Part shown: positions 1,215-10,987 of the stretch, piece after piece
How positions within the stretch are numbered: the stretch's first letter is position 1
Layout of the letters: each line of letters starts with the position of its first letter
Origin: an uncultured Collinsella sp.
GTDB lineage: Bacteria > Actinomycetota > Coriobacteriia > Coriobacteriales > Coriobacteriaceae
Length of the DNA: 11,973 bases
NCBI GenBank assembly: GCA_900764025.1
Contig: CAAFMM010000070.1
Coordinates: 1-11,973 of the forward strand
Direction: 5' to 3'
Notes under the pieces: generated by a model
The model's input: only the letters and a program-made list of their open reading frames with translations
What the model was told of the DNA's origin: nothing
Database searches by the model: none
Made by a program: the position numbers and the translations under genes

Positions 1215-3464
1215 TTACTTGCGCTTGCCGCCGCCGTCACCGGGGCGACGGGAGCTGCCGCCGCGCTTGCCGCCACGGCTGTTGCCATAGCTGCCACGGT
1301 TATCGCGACCGCCGGCACGGCCGCCACGGGAGCCGACCTGGTTGCCGCCGCGACCACCACGGTAGCCGCCGCGACGCTCTTCGCGGGTATCGTCGTAGTT
1401 GCGCCAGTCATCGCGACGATCGCGGCTGGCACGCGGGTCACGACGATCGCGCGACTCGTTAGAACGACCAGCGCCGCCGCGGCCGCCATTGCCGCGAGCA
1501 CCCTCGCGACGCTCGCCGCCGCGGCTACCGCGCTCTTCAAAGCGCTTGCCGCCACGGGACTCACCGCCACGGGCAGCACGCTCACCACGACCCTCGCCGC
1601 CGCGACGCTCATCACGGCCGCCGCGCTCGTCATCGCGACCGGAACGACGACGGTCGCCCGCACCACGCTTGCCGCCACGCGAGCCACGACCCTCGTCCTC
1701 GCGCTCGACACGACGACGGCCGCCGCGGTCCTCGTCCTCGCGGCGACGGCGATGCGCCTCGCCCTGGAACTGCTTGGCACGGCGCTCGGCACGGTTGCCG
1801 CGCGGCGCCTGCTCGGCGGCAGCAGCACCGCCGCGCTCCTCGGCAGCCACCTCGCGGGCCACGCTCTCCACAGCCTCGTCCACGCGAGCCTGAACGCCCT
1901 CGCGCACGCGGGTCTTGCCGCCGCGCTTGGGACGGCTCGGACGCTCGCCGTCGCCGCGACGCTCGTCGCGACCACGGTTGGAACGACCGGCCACATCGCC
2001 GTAGTCATCGCCGTTGCGCTTGCCGTCGCGACGCGCCTGCTCAAGCTTCTTCTTGCTCTTGGACTTGCCGCGCTTGGTCTTCTTCTTCACCTTAAAGGCA
2101 GCAGGATCGCGCTCGGGGTCAACGGCGGGCGGGTTGGGACCCACGTGCAGGTCGCCGGCTTCGTAAATATCGGCCGTCTTGTCCATGAGCTTCTCGATCT
2201 CGTAGAACTCATCAACGTCCTGCTCGGTCACAAACGTAATGGCCCAGCCCAGCTCGCCGGCGCGGCCCGTACGGCCAATGCGGTGGATGTAGTCGGTCGG
2301 CTCGGCTGGCACGTCAAAGTTCACGACGTAGCGCACGTCGCTAATGTCGATGCCGCGGGCGAGCACGTCGGTTGCCACCAACACGTCGACGGTACCGTCG
2401 CGGAAGGCCGAAAGGGCACGCTCGCGCTGGGCCTGGCTGCGGTTGCCGTGAATCGCGGCGGCCTTGATGCCCTTACGCTCCAGACGACGGCAGCAGCTGT
2501 CGGCGCGATGCTTGGTGCGCATAAAGACAATGGTGCGCTCCGGGCCCTCCTTCTTGAGAAACTCGGGCAACAGGTTGTTCTTTGCCTCAATGGACACCGG
2601 GAACACAAACTGGTCGACGGTGTCGGCGGTCGACGTGGCGGGCGCGATCTCCACGCGGGCCGGGTCGCTCACCAGATCAGTGATCTCGCCCACGGCCTCC
2701 TCGTCGAGCGTCGCCGAGAACAGCAGCGTCTGGCGCTCGGCCGGCGTCTCGCGCACAATGCGGCGGACGGCGGGCAAAAAGCCCATGTCGAGCATGCGAT
2801 CGGCCTCGTCGAGCACCAGCACCTTAACCTCGTCCAGGTGGCAGGCACCCTGCTCGATCAGATCGACCAGACGGCCCGGCGTGGCGACCAGGATATCGCA
2901 GCCGTACTTGAGTGCCGCGGTCTGCGGCTTGTAGCTCACGCCGCCCACGACGGTCACGGCAACGTGGCCCGTGACGTCGGCGATTTTGCTCGCGACCTCG
3001 TCGATCTGCTGGGCAAGCTCGCGCGTGGGGGTGATGACGAGCATCACGGGGCCACGGCCGTTGCCCTCGGGCTTTTTAGCACCGCGACGGCGGTTGCGGC
3101 CGCCGCGCTCACGCACGGGCTTGGTCGGAGCGATGTGCTCCAGGCTGTTCATGGTCGGGAGCAAAAAGGCGGCCGTCTTGCCGGTGCCGGTCTGAGCGGC
3201 GGCAAGCAGGTCGCGGCCTTCGAGCACCACAGGGATCGAGCCGGCCTGCACGGGCGTCGGCGCCGTGTAGCCCAGATTCTCGATGGCACGAAGCATCTCA
3301 TCCGAAAGTCCCAGCTCGTCAAAGGCGGGCAGGTTCTCGGTCGCGGACTCGACGGTCTCGGCGGCGCTGGCCTCGTCGGCAGCACCGAAGGCAGCCTGGG
3401 TCATGGCCTCGCGGGTCTCGTCCAGAATCTCGGCGTCCGTGACGTCAGATACAGAATTACGCAT
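1215..3464 (-). CDS. DEAD-box ATP-dependent RNA helicase with RGG-rich C-terminal tail
   Basis: A 749-residue superfamily 2 helicase that unwinds short RNA duplexes in ribosome assembly or mRNA turnover. Motifs in order: Q motif around GYTAPTPVQ (65-73), AQTGTGKT (90-97), PTREL (146-150), TPGRL (195-199), DEAD (219-222), SAT (250-252), ARGID (369-373) and HRIGRTGR (394-401). All catalytic motifs are intact. A basic insert of about 29 residues (111-139, rich in Arg and Gly) lies between motifs I and Ia. From about residue 460 the chain becomes Lys-rich and then a roughly 280-residue low-complexity Arg/Gly/Glu/Asp tail with more than a dozen RGG triplets, a likely RNA-binding disordered region. 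I chose the ATG at 3464 because AAGGAA lies nine bases upstream; codons up to 3500 are open but have no such site. It is monocistronic, with a terminator at 1148-1182. It could be of CsdA/DeaD or RhlE type; the motifs alone do not decide. Confidence 0.95.
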   Translation of the reverse strand: MRNSVSDVTDAEILDETREAMTQAAFGAADEASAAETVESATENLPAFDELGLSDEMLRAIENLGYTAPTPVQAGSIPVVLEGRDLLAAAQTGTGKTAAFLLPTMNSLEHIAPTKPVRERGGRNRRRGAKKPEGNGRGPVMLVITPTRELAQQIDEVASKIADVTGHVAVTVVGGVSYKPQTAALKYGCDILVATPGRLVDLIEQGACHLDEVKVLVLDEADRMLDMGFLPAVRRIVRETPAERQTLLFSATLDEEAVGEITDLVSDPARVEIAPATSTADTVDQFVFPVSIEAKNNLLPEFLKKEGPERTIVFMRTKHRADSCCRRLERKGIKAAAIHGNRSQAQRERALSAFRDGTVDVLVATDVLARGIDISDVRYVVNFDVPAEPTDYIHRIGRTGRAGELGWAITFVTEQDVDEFYEIEKLMDKTADIYEAGDLHVGPNPPAVDPERDPAAFKVKKKTKRGKSKSKKKLEQARRDGKRNGDDYGDVAGRSNRGRDERRGDGERPSRPKRGGKTRVREGVQARVDEAVESVAREVAAEERGGAAAAEQAPRGNRAERRAKQFQGEAHRRRREDEDRGGRRRVEREDEGRGSRGGKRGAGDRRRSGRDDERGGRDERRGGEGRGERAARGGESRGGKRFEERGSRGGERREGARGNGGRGGAGRSNESRDRRDPRASRDRRDDWRNYDDTREERRGGYRGGRGGNQVGSRGGRAGGRDNRGSYGNSRGGKRGGSSRRPGDGGGKRK

Positions 3465-3669
3465 ATGTTGTTGTTCCTTATCTGCACGCGCAATGGGCAC
3501 GGCATGCGGCCGCGCGGGCGTGCTTGGTAGTGCGCTAATACATACAAAAACAGGTGCGCACAGAGAGGACGTTGCTCAGCACGCTGGCGATCGCTTTGGC
3601 AGCCCTATCACGCGCCGTCCAGACGCAGCAGCTCTAAGCGATGGAGCAGATTCGCCGCCGGTTAGTATA
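3465..3669 (-). promoter_or_regulatory. Leader and possible -10 box of the helicase gene
   Basis: On the minus strand GGGTATACTAAC contains a good -10 hexamer, TATACT (3669-3664). No convincing -35 box lies 16-18 bp upstream. Used as a start, it would give a leader of about 190 nt. Long leaders are common for cold-shock DEAD-box helicase genes (family knowledge). The leader holds a dyad of GTGCGC and GCGCAC around a T-rich 20-nt segment (about 3531-3562). I see no gene in this stretch. Confidence 0.35.
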
Positions 3670-3735: not shown

Positions 3736-3873
3736 GTCTCAATCTGTAACATCTACAGGGCGAATCTTCCTCTACGTGTTACAGATCGAGACAAACGGTC
3801 GACACGGTTCACAAGCGTCTCAATCTGTAACAATTACCGAGTAAAATCGGTCCTAATTGTTATAGATCAAGAC
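3736..3873. repeat. Array of two 57-bp hairpin repeat units (left array)
   Basis: Unit A is 3736-3792 and unit B is 3817-3873, 81 bp start to start with a 24-nt spacer. Each has a left arm close to GTCTCAATCTGTAACA, an interior of exactly 25 nt, and a right arm close to TGTTACAGATCGAGAC. The arms match at 15 of 16 (A) and 13 of 16 (B) positions. In B the pairing extends inward (ATTA with TAAT, then CCGA with TCGG). The same family forms the array at 7310-7607. There is no oligo-T tail and no coding sequence. The region lies between the divergent helicase and FHA genes. Confidence 0.85.
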
Positions 3874-3945: not shown

Positions 3946-4052
3946 GTTGCTTTGGTTACGCTATATATTGCGCAGCCATTTAATACGTCGCCCACCGGGG
4001 GCCATTAATTCCTATCGCCATATTGGCTAGGAAGCAATCAAAGGAGGTATCC

Positions 4053-5015
4053 GTGGCAGCAGAGACGCCTTGCTCGGTCCTCTATAACGATATTCGCTCG
4101 TTCGGCGGTCTTAAACATCTCGAGATCGCCCGAATGCTCATCAATGGAAACTCTTATCTCGGCAGTACCCTGCTCGAGAAATGCTCTTCCAACCGCTCGT
4201 ATCTCACCCGTTACATCGTCCATCGCAAGCCTGACCAGTGCGCGCCCTCCATCTACAGCGACTTTACCGTCACCACGCTCAACCTTTCCTCGGCAATCTG
4301 CAGCAAGCTCGGCGGCGGCGAGTCCGCCTATCGGGCAATCGCCGAGCACTATCGCGGTCCGGCCGCCAACGAAATGATGTCGGCTCTCGCCAGCTACAAG
4401 CTGGACAGCCGCCTATATGCAAATGCCCTCAATCGCATCGACAACTTTGACGGCAATGCCGTGCGCGAAAAAAGCACGCTTTACCTTATGCTCTTTGTGG
4501 CAACGGGGGCGCTCGCCGATCCCGTTCAGGGCGTGGCCACCGTCGAGCGCTTTTGCAGCAGCAAGACGGGCGGGCACTTTGGCACCACCGAAACTACCGT
4601 CGGACGTGGCTTTATGAGCAGCCTGGAGCAGCCGCGCACTGTCGCCCCCAACCTCGGTCTGCTCAGAACCCATGCCGACAACTGCGCCGACATGCAAATC
4701 CATCCCCTCACACGCGATCCGCGCGGCACGGTAATTGGGTCCCTGCCCAAAACCTCGCCCAGCATCACCGATGTAGGCGTTGATGCATCGCGCGAGCATC
4801 TCCGCATTTGGCTCGAAGGCGGACGCTGGTACGCCCAGGGCCTTGGGTCGACCAACGGCACAGTGCTCGAATCGGGCGCGGGTGACGGCGATATTGTGAT
4901 TGAGCCGCCGCGCGACCAACGCGAGCCCGGCAAGATCTATCCCCCGGTGAAAATCGAAAACAGCGACAGGCTCCATCTGGGTCTCTACACGACATTCCTT
5001 GTCATTGTGGACTAG
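4053..5015 (+). CDS. FHA-domain protein with an unrecognised N-terminal region
   Basis: The product has 320 residues. The C-terminal part (about 213-320) is a forkhead-associated domain, a phosphothreonine-peptide reader: TVIGS at 226-230, SREH at 246-249, STNGT at 266-270, then a beta-rich end (HLGLYTTFLVIV). The Ser/His and Asn-Gly-Thr signatures are present, but the usual Arg after the first Gly (IGR) is replaced by Ser230. Residues 1-212 are largely helical-looking, contain several Cys, and match no family I recognise. I chose the GTG at 4053 because AAAGGAGG precedes it by about five bases; an in-frame TTG at 4023 lies before that site and is unlikely. The kinase gene follows on the same strand after a terminator, so the FHA domain probably reads phosphorylation by that kinase or acts in the same pathway (inference). 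Confidence 0.85.
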   Translation: MAAETPCSVLYNDIRSFGGLKHLEIARMLINGNSYLGSTLLEKCSSNRSYLTRYIVHRKPDQCAPSIYSDFTVTTLNLSSAICSKLGGGESAYRAIAEHYRGPAANEMMSALASYKLDSRLYANALNRIDNFDGNAVREKSTLYLMLFVATGALADPVQGVATVERFCSSKTGGHFGTTETTVGRGFMSSLEQPRTVAPNLGLLRTHADNCADMQIHPLTRDPRGTVIGSLPKTSPSITDVGVDASREHLRIWLEGGRWYAQGLGSTNGTVLESGAGDGDIVIEPPRDQREPGKIYPPVKIENSDRLHLGLYTTFLVIVD

Positions 5016-5016
5016 C

Positions 5017-5060
5017 ACGGACGGCGATCGAAAGACGGTCGCCGTCCGTCTTTCGTCTTC
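5017..5060 (+). terminator. Terminator after the FHA gene
   Basis: A perfect 11-bp stem, ACGGACGGCGA (5017-5027) with its complement (5039-5049), follows the stop codon by one base. It is followed by the pyrimidine-rich tail CTTTCGTCTTCT. The U-tract is interrupted, so read-through into the kinase gene is possible. Confidence 0.65.
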
Positions 5061-5103
5061 TACCTTCTGCGTCGTAAGCGACAATGCTCAGCGGCATGCG
5101 TGG

Positions 5104-5144
5104 GCAGTGCGGCTATCATGGTACTTTACCGATATCCGCACTGC
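5104..5144. repeat. Inverted repeat in the FHA-kinase gap
   Basis: GCAGTGCGG (5104-5112) is repeated inverted as CCGCACTGC (5136-5144), with a 23-nt centre that includes TATCAT (5114-5119), a possible -10 element. It lies 43 bp before the kinase start codon. It could be an operator over the kinase promoter or an mRNA leader hairpin; the sequence alone does not decide. Confidence 0.4.
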
Positions 5145-5186
5145 TAACGTATACGTGCGGCAACCCATGCCAGACAAAGGAACGCC

Positions 5187-7271
5187 ATGGATACTACCGA
5201 TAGCGCCTATGGCGACAAACTCATCCGTCTCGATACGTTCGATACCGCCGTGGCGGTCGACCCCAGCGCCGAGGACGACGCCAAGCGTCGGTTTATGACG
5301 CTTATTCTCCAGACGACCCACCGCAACAACGGCAACATCGGGCACGTGCTACGCGCGACCAACACGAGCGGCGAGGTCTTTGCCGTCAAGCTACTCAAGG
5401 ACAACGCCATCCTTTCTGGCCAAGCCCCCGGCCGCTCCGCCGAGCAATCGGCAGCGCACCTGGCCAACACCGCTGCGCTGTTCGAGGAGTACCGTCATCT
5501 GTGCACCGTCTCGCACCTGCGCGGATTTCCGCGCGTCTATGGCTACGGATCGTGCGAGGATGACCCTCTCATCCTCATGGAGTGGGTCGAGGGCACCTCA
5601 CTCAAGCAGGCGCTGCCCCTGCTTCCGCACGACGCCTCGGGCGGGCTGACCACCCAGATGGTCGCCGCCGTCGGAAACGCCGTGCTTCGTGCGCTCTTGA
5701 TGACCCAGGGCCTCGTGAATCCGGTCATCCATCGCGACCTGTCGCCAGCCAATATCATGTTCCGCACCACCAGCCGAACGCTCGAGCAGCAGATTGCCGA
5801 TTGTTCCTTTGACCCCTGCCTCATCGACATGGGCTCCGCGACCATGGCTCTCGGCAACGACACGATCACCCGGCGCGCCGACATCTGGCGCTTTGCCACG
5901 CCCGCATACGCCGCGCCCGAGATGCTCACGCAGGATATCGAAGGCATCGCGGCCCTTCGCCGTTCGCCCGCGATCGACGTCTATGCGCTTTCGAGCATTC
6001 TGTACCAGCTCTACAGCGGTCGCAAACCGTTTGACTTTGAGTCGACGGACGCCGCTGCAACCGGCTCGTTCTATCTCGTAAAGACCAAGACCAAGCCGGC
6101 ACCGCTCGAGCCGCGCTGCGAGGGCGATGAAGCGCTCGTCCAAATCATCATGAAGGGCCTCTCAGTCGATCAGTGCGATCGTCCCACCGAGCAGCAGATG
6201 CTCGAGGTGCTCTCGGCATACCTCACCGATGCCGAATCCGAGGGCCGCGAAGGCGCGGGCAGTGACGCCGCAATCGACATCGACTCCGGTACACACCTTA
6301 AGGTCGACGTCGCCGGCGAGCGCGCGCGAGAGATCCTGGAGCAGGCCCGGCACGATGCCATGACCCGCCGCCGCTTTATTATCGGTGGCGTCGTTGCAGT
6401 CGTTGCGGGGCTCAGCGTCGTTGGCGCGGCAACCCATGGCTTTGGCATCCCCGACTACCTGGACGGCATCCGCGGTTCGCTTGGCGACTACACCTGGGAT
6501 CAGCTGCAGGAGATTTCGCTCAAGATTAAGGCCGCCGAGACCCGTGACGAAGCACGCGAGGTTGCCAAGCGCTATCACCTGCTCGATGCCGATGGGCATA
6601 TCCCCTATCCGTGTGCCAAGCGTGTCACGCTCACCAACGGGCTGCAGGTTGGCGCGCAGCTTGTGGGCATCCGCCACGACGAGCTTCTAGACGGGACGGG
6701 CAAGGCCGGACTGACGTTTATGTTCGACGCCGGCATTGCCGAGCGCGATGCTGCGGCTGAACCGCCGAGCGCCGGCTGGGCAGATTGCGAGCTGCGGGAA
6801 TGGCTCGACGACGACGGCCTTAAACTGCTGCCCAACGAGTTGCGCGGACTCATTAAAGGGGTCAAGAAGGTCTCGAACAATGTGGGCGCCGCCAACAGCG
6901 CATCGTGCCTGAGCGAGTTGCCCGCAACCCTTTGGCTGCCCGCCATGGTCGAGCTGTGCGGTACGCAACCGCCCGATTCGTTTGCCGAGGGCTATCACTA
7001 CCTGGCAGACATCTATAACGGCGAGGGCAAGGAGTATCAGCTCTTCCGCGAGCTCAAGGTGAGCCCGTATTCCACGAACGAGACAATGGTCCGCCAGTGG
7101 AAGGACAAGGACACCTGTTGGTGGGAGCGCACGGTGAGCCCCGACACATCAGAGAGCGAAGGCACACTCTACATAAACCGTGTGGGCCACGACGGCGACG
7201 CCTTTACGTACGCAACGCCTGCGGACAAGCCAAACAAACGAACCTGTGTGATCCCCGGATTCTGTATCTAG
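5187..7271 (+). CDS. Transmembrane serine/threonine protein kinase with DUF6273-like C-terminal sensor domain
   Basis: The product has 694 residues. The cytoplasmic kinase domain (about 45-345) shows AVKLL with the ATP-binding Lys68, catalytic loop HRDLSPAN (182-189), metal-binding DMG (214-216) in place of DFG, APE (243-245), IDVYAL with Asp264, and DRPT with Arg332. HRD followed by S rather than K is a variant known in bacterial kinases. The Gly-rich loop is reduced to GNIGHV. One hydrophobic segment, about 396-416, preceded by TRRR, is the single membrane helix and predicts an intracellular kinase. Residues 420-694 would be extracellular and contain WADCELREWLDDDGLKLLP (531-549), which resembles DUF6273 modules. 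ATG 5187 has AAAGG six bases upstream. The FHA gene just upstream is a natural partner. The ligand and substrates cannot be inferred. Four hairpin repeats start 38 bp after the stop. Confidence 0.9.
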   Translation: MDTTDSAYGDKLIRLDTFDTAVAVDPSAEDDAKRRFMTLILQTTHRNNGNIGHVLRATNTSGEVFAVKLLKDNAILSGQAPGRSAEQSAAHLANTAALFEEYRHLCTVSHLRGFPRVYGYGSCEDDPLILMEWVEGTSLKQALPLLPHDASGGLTTQMVAAVGNAVLRALLMTQGLVNPVIHRDLSPANIMFRTTSRTLEQQIADCSFDPCLIDMGSATMALGNDTITRRADIWRFATPAYAAPEMLTQDIEGIAALRRSPAIDVYALSSILYQLYSGRKPFDFESTDAAATGSFYLVKTKTKPAPLEPRCEGDEALVQIIMKGLSVDQCDRPTEQQMLEVLSAYLTDAESEGREGAGSDAAIDIDSGTHLKVDVAGERAREILEQARHDAMTRRRFIIGGVVAVVAGLSVVGAATHGFGIPDYLDGIRGSLGDYTWDQLQEISLKIKAAETRDEAREVAKRYHLLDADGHIPYPCAKRVTLTNGLQVGAQLVGIRHDELLDGTGKAGLTFMFDAGIAERDAAAEPPSAGWADCELREWLDDDGLKLLPNELRGLIKGVKKVSNNVGAANSASCLSELPATLWLPAMVELCGTQPPDSFAEGYHYLADIYNGEGKEYQLFRELKVSPYSTNETMVRQWKDKDTCWWERTVSPDTSESEGTLYINRVGHDGDAFTYATPADKPNKRTCVIPGFCI

Positions 7272-7309: not shown

Positions 7310-7607
7310 GCCTCGATCTGTAACACTAGCTCGGCAGATACAGGTCTAGATGTTACAGAACGAGACAAACCCCAACCCCGCGAGACAACATCTCAATCTG
7401 TAACAACTAGGACCCAATTATCGGTCTTACTGTTACAGATCGAGATGTTCGGGTTGCCCTCTAATAGTTTGTCTCGATCTGTAACATCTAGCAGGTAAAA
7501 CGGTCCCCAGATGTTACAGATCGAGACGTTAAGTTGTGACTCGATGTAATGTCTAGATCTGTAACAGTTACTCGACAAAAACGGGTCTAGTTGTTACAGA
7601 TTGAGAT
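7310..7607. repeat. Array of four 57-bp hairpin repeat units (right array)
   Basis: Units C 7310-7366, D 7390-7446, E 7471-7527 and F 7551-7607 start 80, 81 and 80 bp apart, with spacers of 23, 24 and 23 nt. Each is a 16-nt arm, an exactly 25-nt interior and a 16-nt opposite arm. Arm matches are 14, 15, 16 and 13 of 16. Interiors differ but tend to keep TA near the start, an A-rich middle (positions 11-14) and GGTC near 16-21. A shorter dyad, TTGCCG with CGGCAA (7284-7307), lies between the kinase stop codon and unit C. No gene, no oligo-T tract and no promoter is evident within 7272-7607. Confidence 0.88.
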
Positions 7608-7759: not shown

Positions 7760-10102
7760 ATGGCTCAAGATAAGTTCGACGTGGGCGGCATGACGTGCGC
7801 CGCTTGCCAGGCGCACGTGGACCGCGCCGTCAGCAAGCTCGACGGCGTCCAAAGCGTCGCGGTCAACCTGCTCGCCGGCTCCATGCTGGTGGACTACGAC
7901 CCCGCGCAGGTCTCCCCCGACGATATCTGCACCGCCGTCGATCGTGCCGGCTACTCGGCCTCGCCCGTCGATGCGGGCACCGGTACCGCCGGCTCAAACG
8001 GCAGCACGCAAGCCAGCTCTGGCGCCGCCCATATGGAGTCGCCAACCAAAAAGCTGGAGGCCGCCGCCTCTGCCATGCGCACCCGCCTCATCATCTCGAT
8101 CGTTTTCCTCGTCCCACTGTTCTACATAGGCATGGGACACATGCTTGGTTGGCCGCTGCCCGGCATTTTCACCGACCATACCCACAGCATGACGCTCGCC
8201 CTCACCGAGCTCGTCCTGCTCATCCCCATCGTCTATGTCAACGACGCGTACTTTATCAACGGGTTTAAATCGCTCGCGCACGGCGCGCCCACCATGGACG
8301 CCCTTATTGCCGTGGGCGCCACCGCCTCCATCGCCTGGTCGCTCTACGCCATGTTCATCATGGCCGACCAATTAGCCGCGGGCCAGGTCCACGAGGCCAT
8401 GATGACGAGCATGGACAATCTGTATTTTGAGAGCGCGGGCACGATCCTGTCGCTGGTCACCGTGGGCAAATACCTCGAGACGCGCAGCAAGTCCAAAACC
8501 GGCGGCGCCATCGAGGCGCTCATCGACCTGGCGCCCAAGACCGCGACCGTCGTTGCCGACGACGGCACCGAGACCACCGTCGACGTCGACAGTATCCTTC
8601 CCGGCCAGGTCCTGCGCGTGCGCCCCGGCGAGTCCATCCCCGTCGATGGCGTGGTGCTCGAGGGCAGCTCGGCCGTGGACGAGAGCGCGCTCACCGGCGA
8701 GTCCATCCCCGTGGAAAAGACCGCCGGCGACACCGTCAACGCCGCCACGGTCAACCGCACCGGCTCGTTTACCTTCCGTGCCACACGCGTGGGCGCCGAC
8801 ACGTCGCTCGCCAAGATTATCCAGCTCGTCGAGGACGCCAACGCCACCAAGGCGCCTATCGCCCGCATGGCCGACAAAGTCGCCGGCGTGTTCGTGCCCG
8901 TGGTGTTCGTGATCTCGGCTGTGACCTTTGCGGCGTGGATGGCACTGACCGGCAGCATAAACGAGGCGCTCACCTCCGCCGTGGCCGTGCTGGTGATCAG
9001 CTGTCCGTGCGCATTGGGTCTGGCCACGCCCGTCGCCATTATGGTCGGCACCGGCAAGGGCGCCGAGATGGGCATTCTGTTCAAGAGCGCCGAGGCGCTG
9101 GAGAATCTGCGCAGCGTGGGCACCGTGGTGCTCGATAAGACGGGAACGGTCACTCGCGGCAAGCCTGCCGTGACCGATATCGTGGTAGCCACGCGTGCCG
9201 ACGGATCGCCCGCCATGAGCGAAAAGGCGCTGCTCAAGCTGGCCGCTGCGCTGGAGCGCTCAAGCGAGCACCCGCTGGCCGAGGCGATTATGGCCGAGTG
9301 CGAGGCGCGCGGAATCGTCGCACGCATGGTCGAGGACTTTGCCGCCGTGCCCGGGCGAGGCGTTACGGCACGCGAGGGGCAGAATGTCATCGCCGCCGGC
9401 AACGTGCGTCTGATGGACGAGCTGGGCGTGAAGGTTCCCGCCGGCCTTGCCGAACAGTTCGCGGCCGAGGGCAAGACGCCACTGTTCTTTGCCAAGAACA
9501 GCGAGCTTGTCGGCACCATCGCCGTGGCGGACGAGGTCAAGGAGACGAGCGCCGGGGCCATCGCCGCACTGCGCTCGCTTGGCGTCGACGTGCGCATGCT
9601 CACCGGCGACAACCGCGTGACAGCCGAAGCGATCGCCCGCCGCGTGGGACTGAGCAGCGAGCAGGTCATCGCCGACGTCCTCCCCGCCGACAAGGAACGC
9701 CACGTGCGCGAGCTGCAGGATGCGGGCGGCAAGGTCGCCATGGTGGGCGACGGCATCAATGACTCCCCCGCCCTAGCGCGCGCCGACGTGGGCCTTGCTA
9801 TCGGCACCGGCGCCGACATCGCCAAGGAGGGCGCCGACGTGGTACTCATGCGCAGCGACCTCTTGGACGTCGCCCGCGCCATCGAGCTTTCGCGCGCCAC
9901 GATCCGCAACATCAAACAGGACCTGTTCTGGGCACTGTTCTACAACGGCATCGGCATTCCGCTGGCGGCGGGCGTGTTCTTCCCGCTCACCGGATGGCAG
10001 CTCTCGCCGATGTTTGGCGCCGCGGCCATGAGTCTGTCGAGTGTCTGCGTCGTAAGCAATGCGCTGCGCTTAAAATCCTTTAAGCCTAAAGTGGCAAAAT
10101 AG
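7760..10102 (+). CDS. copA: Copper-exporting P1B-type ATPase
   Basis: The 780-residue enzyme pumps Cu(I) out of the cytoplasm using ATP. One N-terminal heavy-metal-associated domain (about 4-67) carries GGMTCAAC with Cys13 and Cys16. A linker rich in Ser, Gly and Ala follows. Membrane helices start near 108, 145, 180 and 222. TGES (312-315) is the actuator motif. CPC (415-417) is the transmembrane copper site. DKTGT begins at Asp459, the phosphorylated residue. HPLAEA and GDGIND (663-668) complete the ATP-binding domain. Tyr728-Asn729 and MSLSS (757-761) in the last helices are the signature of Cu(I) rather than Zn/Cd transport (subfamily knowledge). The start at ATG 7760 has AGAGGAG upstream. 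It is the first gene of a copA-copZ-csoR operon under the CsoR-like operator at 7687-7699. Confidence 0.97.
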
Positions 10103-10497: not shown

Positions 10498-10564
10498 AGT
10501 TGCGGTGAAATACGGACTGTTGAGCCGCCCTAGGCCTTTAAACAGTCCGTATTTCACCGCAACT
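10498..10564. repeat. Hairpin repeat, family AGTTGCGGTG, copy 2
   Basis: Perfect 24-bp arms (10498-10521 and 10541-10564) surround a 19-nt loop containing GCCGCCC and AGGCC. It is the same family as 1042-1108. It sits between copZ and csoR, starting 26 bp past the copZ stop codon. It has no T-tract, so it is not an ordinary terminator. Confidence 0.85.
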
Positions 10565-10879: not shown

Positions 10880-10971
10880 TTGGGGACATTGGGGACAGAC
10901 TGCTTTGCGCCATCTTGGTGTATCGGGGACAGGTACGTTTGCACCACATTGGTGCAGATTAACCTGTCCCC
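10880..10971. repeat. REP-like element after csoR
   Basis: Tandem TTGGGGACA (10880-10888, 10889-10897) starts at the base after the csoR stop codon. A dyad follows: GGGGACAGGT with TGCACCA (10925-10946) and its inverted partner (10950-10971), 18 of 22 matching. The right arm is related to the arms of the 1003-1150 element. No T-tract follows, so termination is uncertain. Confidence 0.65.
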
Positions 10972-10987
10972 CTTGCTCTAAATCGGG

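Follow-up and report, generated by a model that had tools for sequence, protein, structure and literature searches.

The 57-bp units that stand between genes in the window (the whole 11,973-nucleotide stretch of uncultured Collinsella DNA analyzed here) belong to a real, strongly constrained, and clade-restricted family of intergenic sites. The geometry of the unit is fixed, its conserved arms show no covariation, its loops avoid self-pairing, and it is confined to a clade; the arrays lie between genes, differ in unit number between strains, and are enriched in breaks of synteny. We tentatively propose, from sequence comparisons, that the unit is a double-stranded DNA site of a dimeric or oligomeric protein that needs evenly spaced steps, and that the arrays are joints of exchange, a joint reading that we regard as plausible rather than probable. 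The bound protein, its cooperative binding along the array, and recombination within arrays as the cause of gene-block changes are what we infer beyond these observations.

All six units of the window were found where the initial annotation had placed them, with 16-nt inverted arms that differ from each other at zero to three positions, an interior of 25 nt, and spacers of 23 to 24 nt (Table 1). The profile of 336 unique units reads [GA]TCTC[GA]ATCTGTAACA, two free bases, TAG, and a G/C-rich stretch; beyond the A/T tract at the center come a second G/C-rich stretch, CTA, two more free bases, and the arm in inverse form. An A/T-rich edge extends the element about 3 nt outward of the 57 bp, and the spacers have three A/T-rich positions at each end; no inner palindrome was seen by eye in the 16-nt arm. 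Two details ascribed to the interiors hold locally but not in general. The A-rich middle is present in the window on the plus strand, whereas the central tract of the family is A or T, and GGTC, which stands near the end of five of the six interiors in the window, does not hold as a rule across the family. Neighboring units agree mildly in the polarity of the central tract (156 same versus 113 opposite, arrays not being independent).

Table 1. Coordinates of the array units, spacers, and adjoining genes in the window
Feature	Position	Strand	Remarks
Array 1 unit 1	3736-3792	.	Arms 3736-3751 and 3777-3792, interior 3752-3776
Array 1 spacer	3793-3816	.	24 nt
Array 1 unit 2	3817-3873	.	
Array 2 unit 1	7310-7366	.	
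Array 2 spacer	7367-7389	.	23 nt
Array 2 unit 2	7390-7446	.	
Array 2 spacer	7447-7470	.	24 nt
Array 2 unit 3	7471-7527	.	
Array 2 spacer	7528-7550	.	23 nt
Array 2 unit 4	7551-7607	.	
DEAD-box helicase gene, left neighbor of array 1	1215-3500	-	Annotated orthologous record
Gene block between arrays	4023-7271	+	FHA-domain protein and 694-aa protein
FHA-domain protein	4023-5015	+	Longest ORF
694-aa protein	5187-7271	+	Kinase-like by eye
Heavy-metal P-type ATPase gene, right neighbor of array 2	7760-10102	+	Annotated orthologous record

An initial scan of one genome per species, which allowed any gap of 10 to 40 nt between the arm halves, returned at least 120 stretches; among the matches listed, 73 of 80 were from Collinsella, and the other seven, with gaps other than 25 nt, look like chance hits. 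Across 142 sequences (the window, 120 genome loci, and 21 viral-contig loci), the gap was exactly 25 nt in 362 of 389 arm pairs and the spacer 23 or 24 nt in 223 of 247 cases. A stricter count with tighter arms, a partner sought 10 to 60 nt away, and more loci bore out the sharp peak that the initial annotation had named as supporting evidence: 404 of 409 distinct interiors of widely different sequence measured 25 nt, the exceptions being four of 26 nt and one of 24 nt. The proportion was 120 of 125 among non-redundant interiors (the remainder 24 or 26 nt), and 257 of 271 distinct spacers were of 23 or 24 nt. Left arms with up to three mismatches lacked a partner 10 to 60 nt away in 45 of 647 cases, contig and locus ends included. 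In counts that retained overlapping loci, the start-to-start spacing of 236 adjacent pairs was 80 bp (130 pairs), 81 bp (97), 79 bp (8), or 78 bp (1), and 144 arrays consisted of one (14), two (55), three (50), four (22), five (2), or eight (1) units. With inverted arms and an 80/81-bp period, the orientation therefore switches from one arm to the next at intervals of about 40 bp.

Orthologous interiors accumulate 0.0044 length changes per substitution (one length change and 225 substitutions in 162 interiors, those more than six changes apart being excluded), against 0.028 gap openings per substitution in the outer flanks (1,125 pairs). Since indels are rarer in the interiors than in the flanks, passive decay does not fit, as had been argued from the window, and the sharp 25-nt peak across unrelated interiors together with the few length changes among orthologs speaks for the suggested selection on geometry. 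That 78 of the 79 G006 arms with up to one mismatch are parts of units points to selection as well. Interior lengths are not broad, and neither Rfam, searched with the window, nor a survey of mostly open literature gave a relevant match, a catalogued repeat, or a description of the family. The remark that no described family has this layout holds to that extent, but the layout does resemble those of BIMEs and REPINs.

Exact matches were found in 22 of 396 genomes of the class, 21 of which hold 21 to 44 units and one of which (G037) holds a single unit. With a 25-nt gap and up to two mismatches, 22 of 43 Collinsella genomes hold 25 to 65 units, three hold one, and 18 hold none; the reversed-pattern control gave no match in any of the 43 genomes, so the family is not a product of chance. 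The lone unit of G037 is complete (L331 1495-1551, G037:C21), matches one unit of G004 and one of G006 exactly in its interior, and is possibly a recent transfer; by eye, it adjoins a tRNA-like stretch. Genomes G020 and G038 have one unit in common, with the same interior. A 951-bp stretch around array 2 is 81 to 93% identical to array-bearing genomes of the genus in the best matches. In the plasmid set, array 2 matched a single Collinsella record, C. aerofaciens NZ_OY725717.1. That record (899,693 bp) is titled "plasmid 6", shows five arrays in 38 kb (positions 398000-436000, L333), and has chromosome-like genes (an RNB-domain ribonuclease, smpB, ftsX, and gltB), so that its plasmid label is probably wrong. 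An IMG/VR viral contig of 38,886 bp has two units with 25-nt gaps, 81 bp apart (L122 913-1038), probably bacterial DNA beside a prophage.

In the mechanism that we tentatively favor, the unit would present two inverted 16-bp half-sites held 25 bp apart, bordered on the outside by A/T-rich edges and having an A/T tract midway between them. A protein of the Collinsella clade, acting as a dimer or oligomer, would occupy it and would also need the 23- to 24-bp step to the next unit, half-sites alternating about every 40 bp, and the arrays would act, or would have come to act, as joints where whole units, and likewise inter-array gene blocks, are gained, lost, and exchanged. A 201-aa serine recombinase closely similar to Sin/Tn552 Bin3 is the lead candidate for the protein, and homologous recombination on the repeats would be the default alternative for the exchange step.

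It is unlikely that the units are instead a REPIN- or MITE-like family, that is, 57-bp hairpins once copied by a trans-acting transposase that used the arms as its signal and now maintained by inheritance. REPINs are inverted doublets of REPs with a less conserved spacer, extragenic and sometimes tandem (PMC3116915, in excerpt), and the Collinsella units, as inverted conserved 16-mers with a less conserved interior, in extragenic position and in tandem clusters, have this anatomy. Y1 transposases (PF01797) were matched in 37 of 43 genus genomes, some of them RAYT-like in length and score, and the single unit of the otherwise unit-free G037, with its G004/G006-identical interior, would suit a mobile element as well. 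Against this, a RAYT flanked by two inverted REPs was not encountered: none of 24 Y1 loci read from among the matches (2 to 6.5 kb, up to three mismatches), including all four of G006, has arms, and a RAYT/REPIN cognate was rejected on these grounds. Solitary decayed copies are also scarce. REP singlets make up 18% of the REPs in the genome studied in PMC3116915 (in excerpt), whereas in G006 (a 2.43-Mb contig with 17 arrays) 78 of 79 arms with up to one mismatch sit inside units and one is solitary, so no autonomous arm-bounded element is visible there. Ordered REPIN clusters are tandem near-identical copies (PMC3116915, in excerpt), while tandem Collinsella units are unrelated in both interior and spacer; the arm is not itself palindromic as judged by eye, the arms do not covary, and the shortage of indels in the interiors is not predicted by passive decay. 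Laid out like a BIME, the family showed neither the RAYT association, over the loci read, nor near-identical tandem copies.

The window contains further inverted repeats. A nested long inverted pair at positions 998 to 1155 is built around TTGGTGCAAAGGGGTCAGG and AGTTGCGGTGAAATA..., the latter occurring again at 10498 to 10564 with 24-nt arms that are 100% complementary; both look like separate REPIN-type families, and AGTTGCGGTGAAATA-like pairs are also seen in some Y1 loci (L218, L228, and L240). The GGGGACAGAC repeats at 10881 to 10982 resemble the inverted repeats (L222 2427-2483 and 3420-3470) that bracket the gene of a 263-aa Y1 transposase in G006, which is likely a RAYT paired with a REP of its own, in contrast to the 57-bp units.

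The arrays may alternatively be chromosome-organizing, BIME-like sites, at which a nucleoid protein on phased arrays shapes the DNA or insulates genes and gene-block changes are a by-product of the repeats; we consider this unlikely. In BIMEs, the palindromic REP units are bound by host proteins. BIMEs are regularly spaced elements in alternating orientation (PMC2817692, in excerpt), and the Collinsella units match them in intergenic position, regular spacing at a fixed 80/81-bp pitch, alternating orientation, and variable number per array. Among 27 array rows (26 distinct arrays, from the window and two genomes, with genes from a simple ORF caller), none overlaps a predicted gene by more than 30 bp, and convergent, divergent, and tandem contexts occur alike, with no link to the direction of transcription, as such a role would allow. 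The units of BIMEs, however, are REPs, which are palindromic themselves and usually present in more than 100 copies per genome (PMC2817692, in excerpt), unlike the Collinsella arm, in which no palindrome was seen by eye, and the 25 to 65 units per genome, with loops that are mostly unrelated between units and that avoid closure. The small number of arrays in G006, their nonsignificant ori-ter bias (mean 0.40 of the half-chromosome, a hand estimate), and the concentration of synteny breaks at arrays, which an organizing role does not need, also count against it.

The proteins flanking the arrays are varied. The 30 that were scanned include transporters, PTS components, glycosidases, regulators, and glutamate synthase as well as IS110- and IS3-type transposases and a GmrSD-like enzyme, the last being the sole PADLOC match among five proteins submitted. 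In G006, the distance between a four-unit array and an IS110-family transposase gene (L187 4767-5939) is 568 bp. At the window locus, the order of helicase, array, FHA, kinase-like protein, array, and copper ATPase is kept in 13 of 20 other genomes read, two of which (G034 and G014) have an extra 1,115-aa ORF inside array 2; an orthologous annotated record names the proteins of the inter-array block FHA domain-containing and DUF6273. The FHA-kinase block is absent in four of the 20 (G001, G005, G006, and G035), where a single array separates helicase and ATPase, and about 27 kb lies between the two arrays in G007. There, about 25 kb separates the helicase-side array from the kinase-like gene (G007:C1:1049000-1079000, L201 and L202). 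This stretch, in which proteins resembling zinc ribbons and Hsp70 were recognized by eye, seems to be an enlarged version of the FHA-kinase block. No helicase is present in the stretch read in G003, and the locus ends at a contig end in G032.

Breaks of synteny are concentrated at arrays. At 90% identity or more, the far side of the array carried a different sequence in 813 of 2,296 array-flank comparisons (35%), against 264 of 2,297 (11.5%) at control intergenic sites, the comparisons not being mutually independent. Nearly all broken flanks (797 of 813) end at an array edge again, a figure biased upward by the fetching of loci as array-bearing. For 38 array flanks there were at least four observations; 19 of these flanks meet more than one partner, and 11 meet at least three. 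These patterns support, but do not prove, that the arrays are joints of gene-block exchange.

Turnover is also evident within arrays. Among 67 orthologous array pairs that share at least 97% identity in their flanks, 23 are unequal in unit number, and at the array-2 locus of the window 16 of 23 sequences hold both anchor genes, with one to six units. The idea that a copying mechanism preserves the arms while replacing the interiors agrees with some strongly differing interiors but not with most orthologous ones, which are inherited with mostly zero to four changes, a second, smaller group differing at nine or more. Because most interiors are inherited, turnover would consist in whole or half units being gained, lost, or exchanged rather than in the rewriting of each interior; given the same two groups, hypermutation is not favored. 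None of 377 near-identical interiors in orthologous arrays is inverted, which, together with the stability of most orthologous interiors, argues against a freely acting invertase. Unit pairs that share one half and differ in the other number 246, against 143 expected from a column shuffle (sd, 16) and 170 from a block shuffle (sd, 13), a moderate excess that constraint on the motif may partly explain. When sequences were read inward from a common flank to the first unrelated sequence, 130 switches fell before an interior, 19 before a spacer, 161 inside an interior, and 30 inside a spacer. The 161 were distributed over interior positions 3 to 6 (73), 7 to 12 (17), 13 to 16 (40), which lie beside the central tract, and 17 to 23 (31), and another 295 pairs ended at a length difference (198 in a spacer and 97 in an interior). 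As most switches occur at or next to the arms, with only 40 of 161 at positions 13 to 16 and with 97 stops at interior length differences, plain homologous or microhomology-driven exchange may suffice.

Recombinase genes were compared between array-bearing and array-poor genomes. Tyrosine recombinases (PF00589), searched in four genomes with arrays and two without, included no extra one common to all four and were set aside. The PF00239 search of six genomes placed a small recombinase at one apparently orthologous position in the four array genomes but not in the other two. It is a Sin-like serine recombinase whose best solved relative is Sin/Tn552 Bin3. Of the 22 array-rich genomes, 21 have an ortholog of at least 86% identity, as against none of the 21 array-poor ones; the exception is G033 (a 1.6-Mb genome), and the G016 copy is split over two contigs. 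The gene (L279 1351-1956; G006:C1:1061813-1062415) lies beside an RNB-domain ribonuclease gene and is 89 to 100% identical across the 20 genomes of the orthologous loci L280 to L299. Three findings make it a lead only. The adjoining vanZ has a similar distribution (at least 85% identity in 17 of the 22 genomes rich in arrays and in none of the 21 others). No array lies within the loci read around the gene (up to 3.6 kb), the nearest being about 11 kb away in an annotated record. Six array-poor genomes have homologues of 58 to 69% identity, and no arrays were seen by eye among the intergenic inverted repeats of about 32 to 80 kb sampled from each. In the recombinase's favor, vanZ has diverged in G001 (65%) and in G003 and G034 is reduced to matches of short length, whereas the recombinase of these genomes remains at 89 to 91%; in G032, vanZ is broken by contig ends.

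A stronger version of the exchange model, in which the arrays would be the platform of a dedicated, integron-like exchange without integron parts, combining the Sin-like recombinase, lox-like phased sites, crossover at the A/T tract, and reassorting half-interiors, appears distinctly unlikely. Sin res sites span 86 bp, bind two Sin dimers and a bending protein, and contain one inverted and one direct repeat (PMC2428073, in excerpt). Their multi-part build, their similar length, and their architectural bend recall the arrays, and the Sin-like gene occurs in nearly all array-rich genomes, but the repeat arrangement published for res and the distance of the gene from an array set the two apart. 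The attC boxes of integrons are RYYYAAC and GTTRRRY. Palindromic sites edge gene blocks that come and go in integrons and in Collinsella alike, but the Collinsella arm reads CTGTAAC / GTTACAG in the 336 unique 57-mers and does not match these boxes, the site is strictly 57 bp, and the flanking genes take any orientation.

Whether the unit acts as a duplex or as a hairpin was approached through its arms and loops. In 115 non-redundant units, pairing between the arms equaled the permuted value at the variable positions (0.487 versus 0.478 at 1/57, 0.670 versus 0.664 at 5/53, and 0.513 versus 0.481 at 6/52), with A.C mismatches at 1/57 in 36% of units, and thus no covariation was found. Within an interior, the two halves complement each other less well than do halves taken from different units (z = -7.8, n = 120), an avoidance that persists after orientation by the T tract (z = -5.3) and that the spacers likewise show (z = -3.8 for 23 nt, n = 71; z = -4.1 for 24 nt, n = 40), while control intergenic 25-mers do not (z = +1.5, n = 392). 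The A/T edges of the spacers run in the same strand sense in 79 cases versus 26, so they do not lengthen the stem inward, and its outward extension from the unit is near neutral. We take the avoidance to mean that loops favoring the nucleation of a hairpin are selected against or are unstable, although a hairpin whose loop must stay open would show it as well. The absence of arm covariation and the avoidance of loop closure favor a double-stranded site over a functional hairpin, for which compensation would be expected under selection and is not seen; that the units are pairs of inverted half-sites of a putative duplex-binding protein is well supported at the sequence level. A single-stranded hairpin or transcribed RNA (an attC-like site or small RNA), its 16-bp stem capped by an open loop of 25 nt, would account for the regular inverted arms and the unpaired loop, but it is very doubtful in view of the missing compensatory changes, the same avoidance in the inter-unit spacers, the lack of a relevant Rfam match for the window, and arms that differ from attC boxes.

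Terminators were dismissed, as arrays also stand between divergent genes and no T-run follows the units by eye, and so was CRISPR, in which direct repeats alternate with spacers taken from phages or plasmids, as the arms are inverted and the interiors are inherited between orthologs. Two of the six window interiors were searched in viral contigs, with no exact match, and array 2 has no phage match. A survey of structured-RNA candidates from gut metagenomes reports 20 that are palindromic and not terminator-like (PMC8040213, in excerpt), among which the Collinsella repeat could be. Three Collinsella genomes are among the ten species with the most HGT insertion-site samples in PMC7771070, whose excerpted text does not describe the Collinsella motif.

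The usual explanation of a short intergenic palindromic repeat is a transposase footprint or a terminator. The human-gut clade studied here keeps an unusually exact two-loop geometry to which no transposase has so far been linked, its loops avoid self-closure, and its arrays lie at the edges of gene blocks that have been exchanged. Were the arrays a dedicated exchange platform, this gut clade would swap metabolic gene blocks at fixed chromosomal joints, such as the 17 arrays of G006. If a protein binds the arrays, they would form a new nucleoprotein structure, and if a protein recombines them, this would help to explain the differences in gene content among Collinsella strains; either way, the sites are ready bait for finding that protein.
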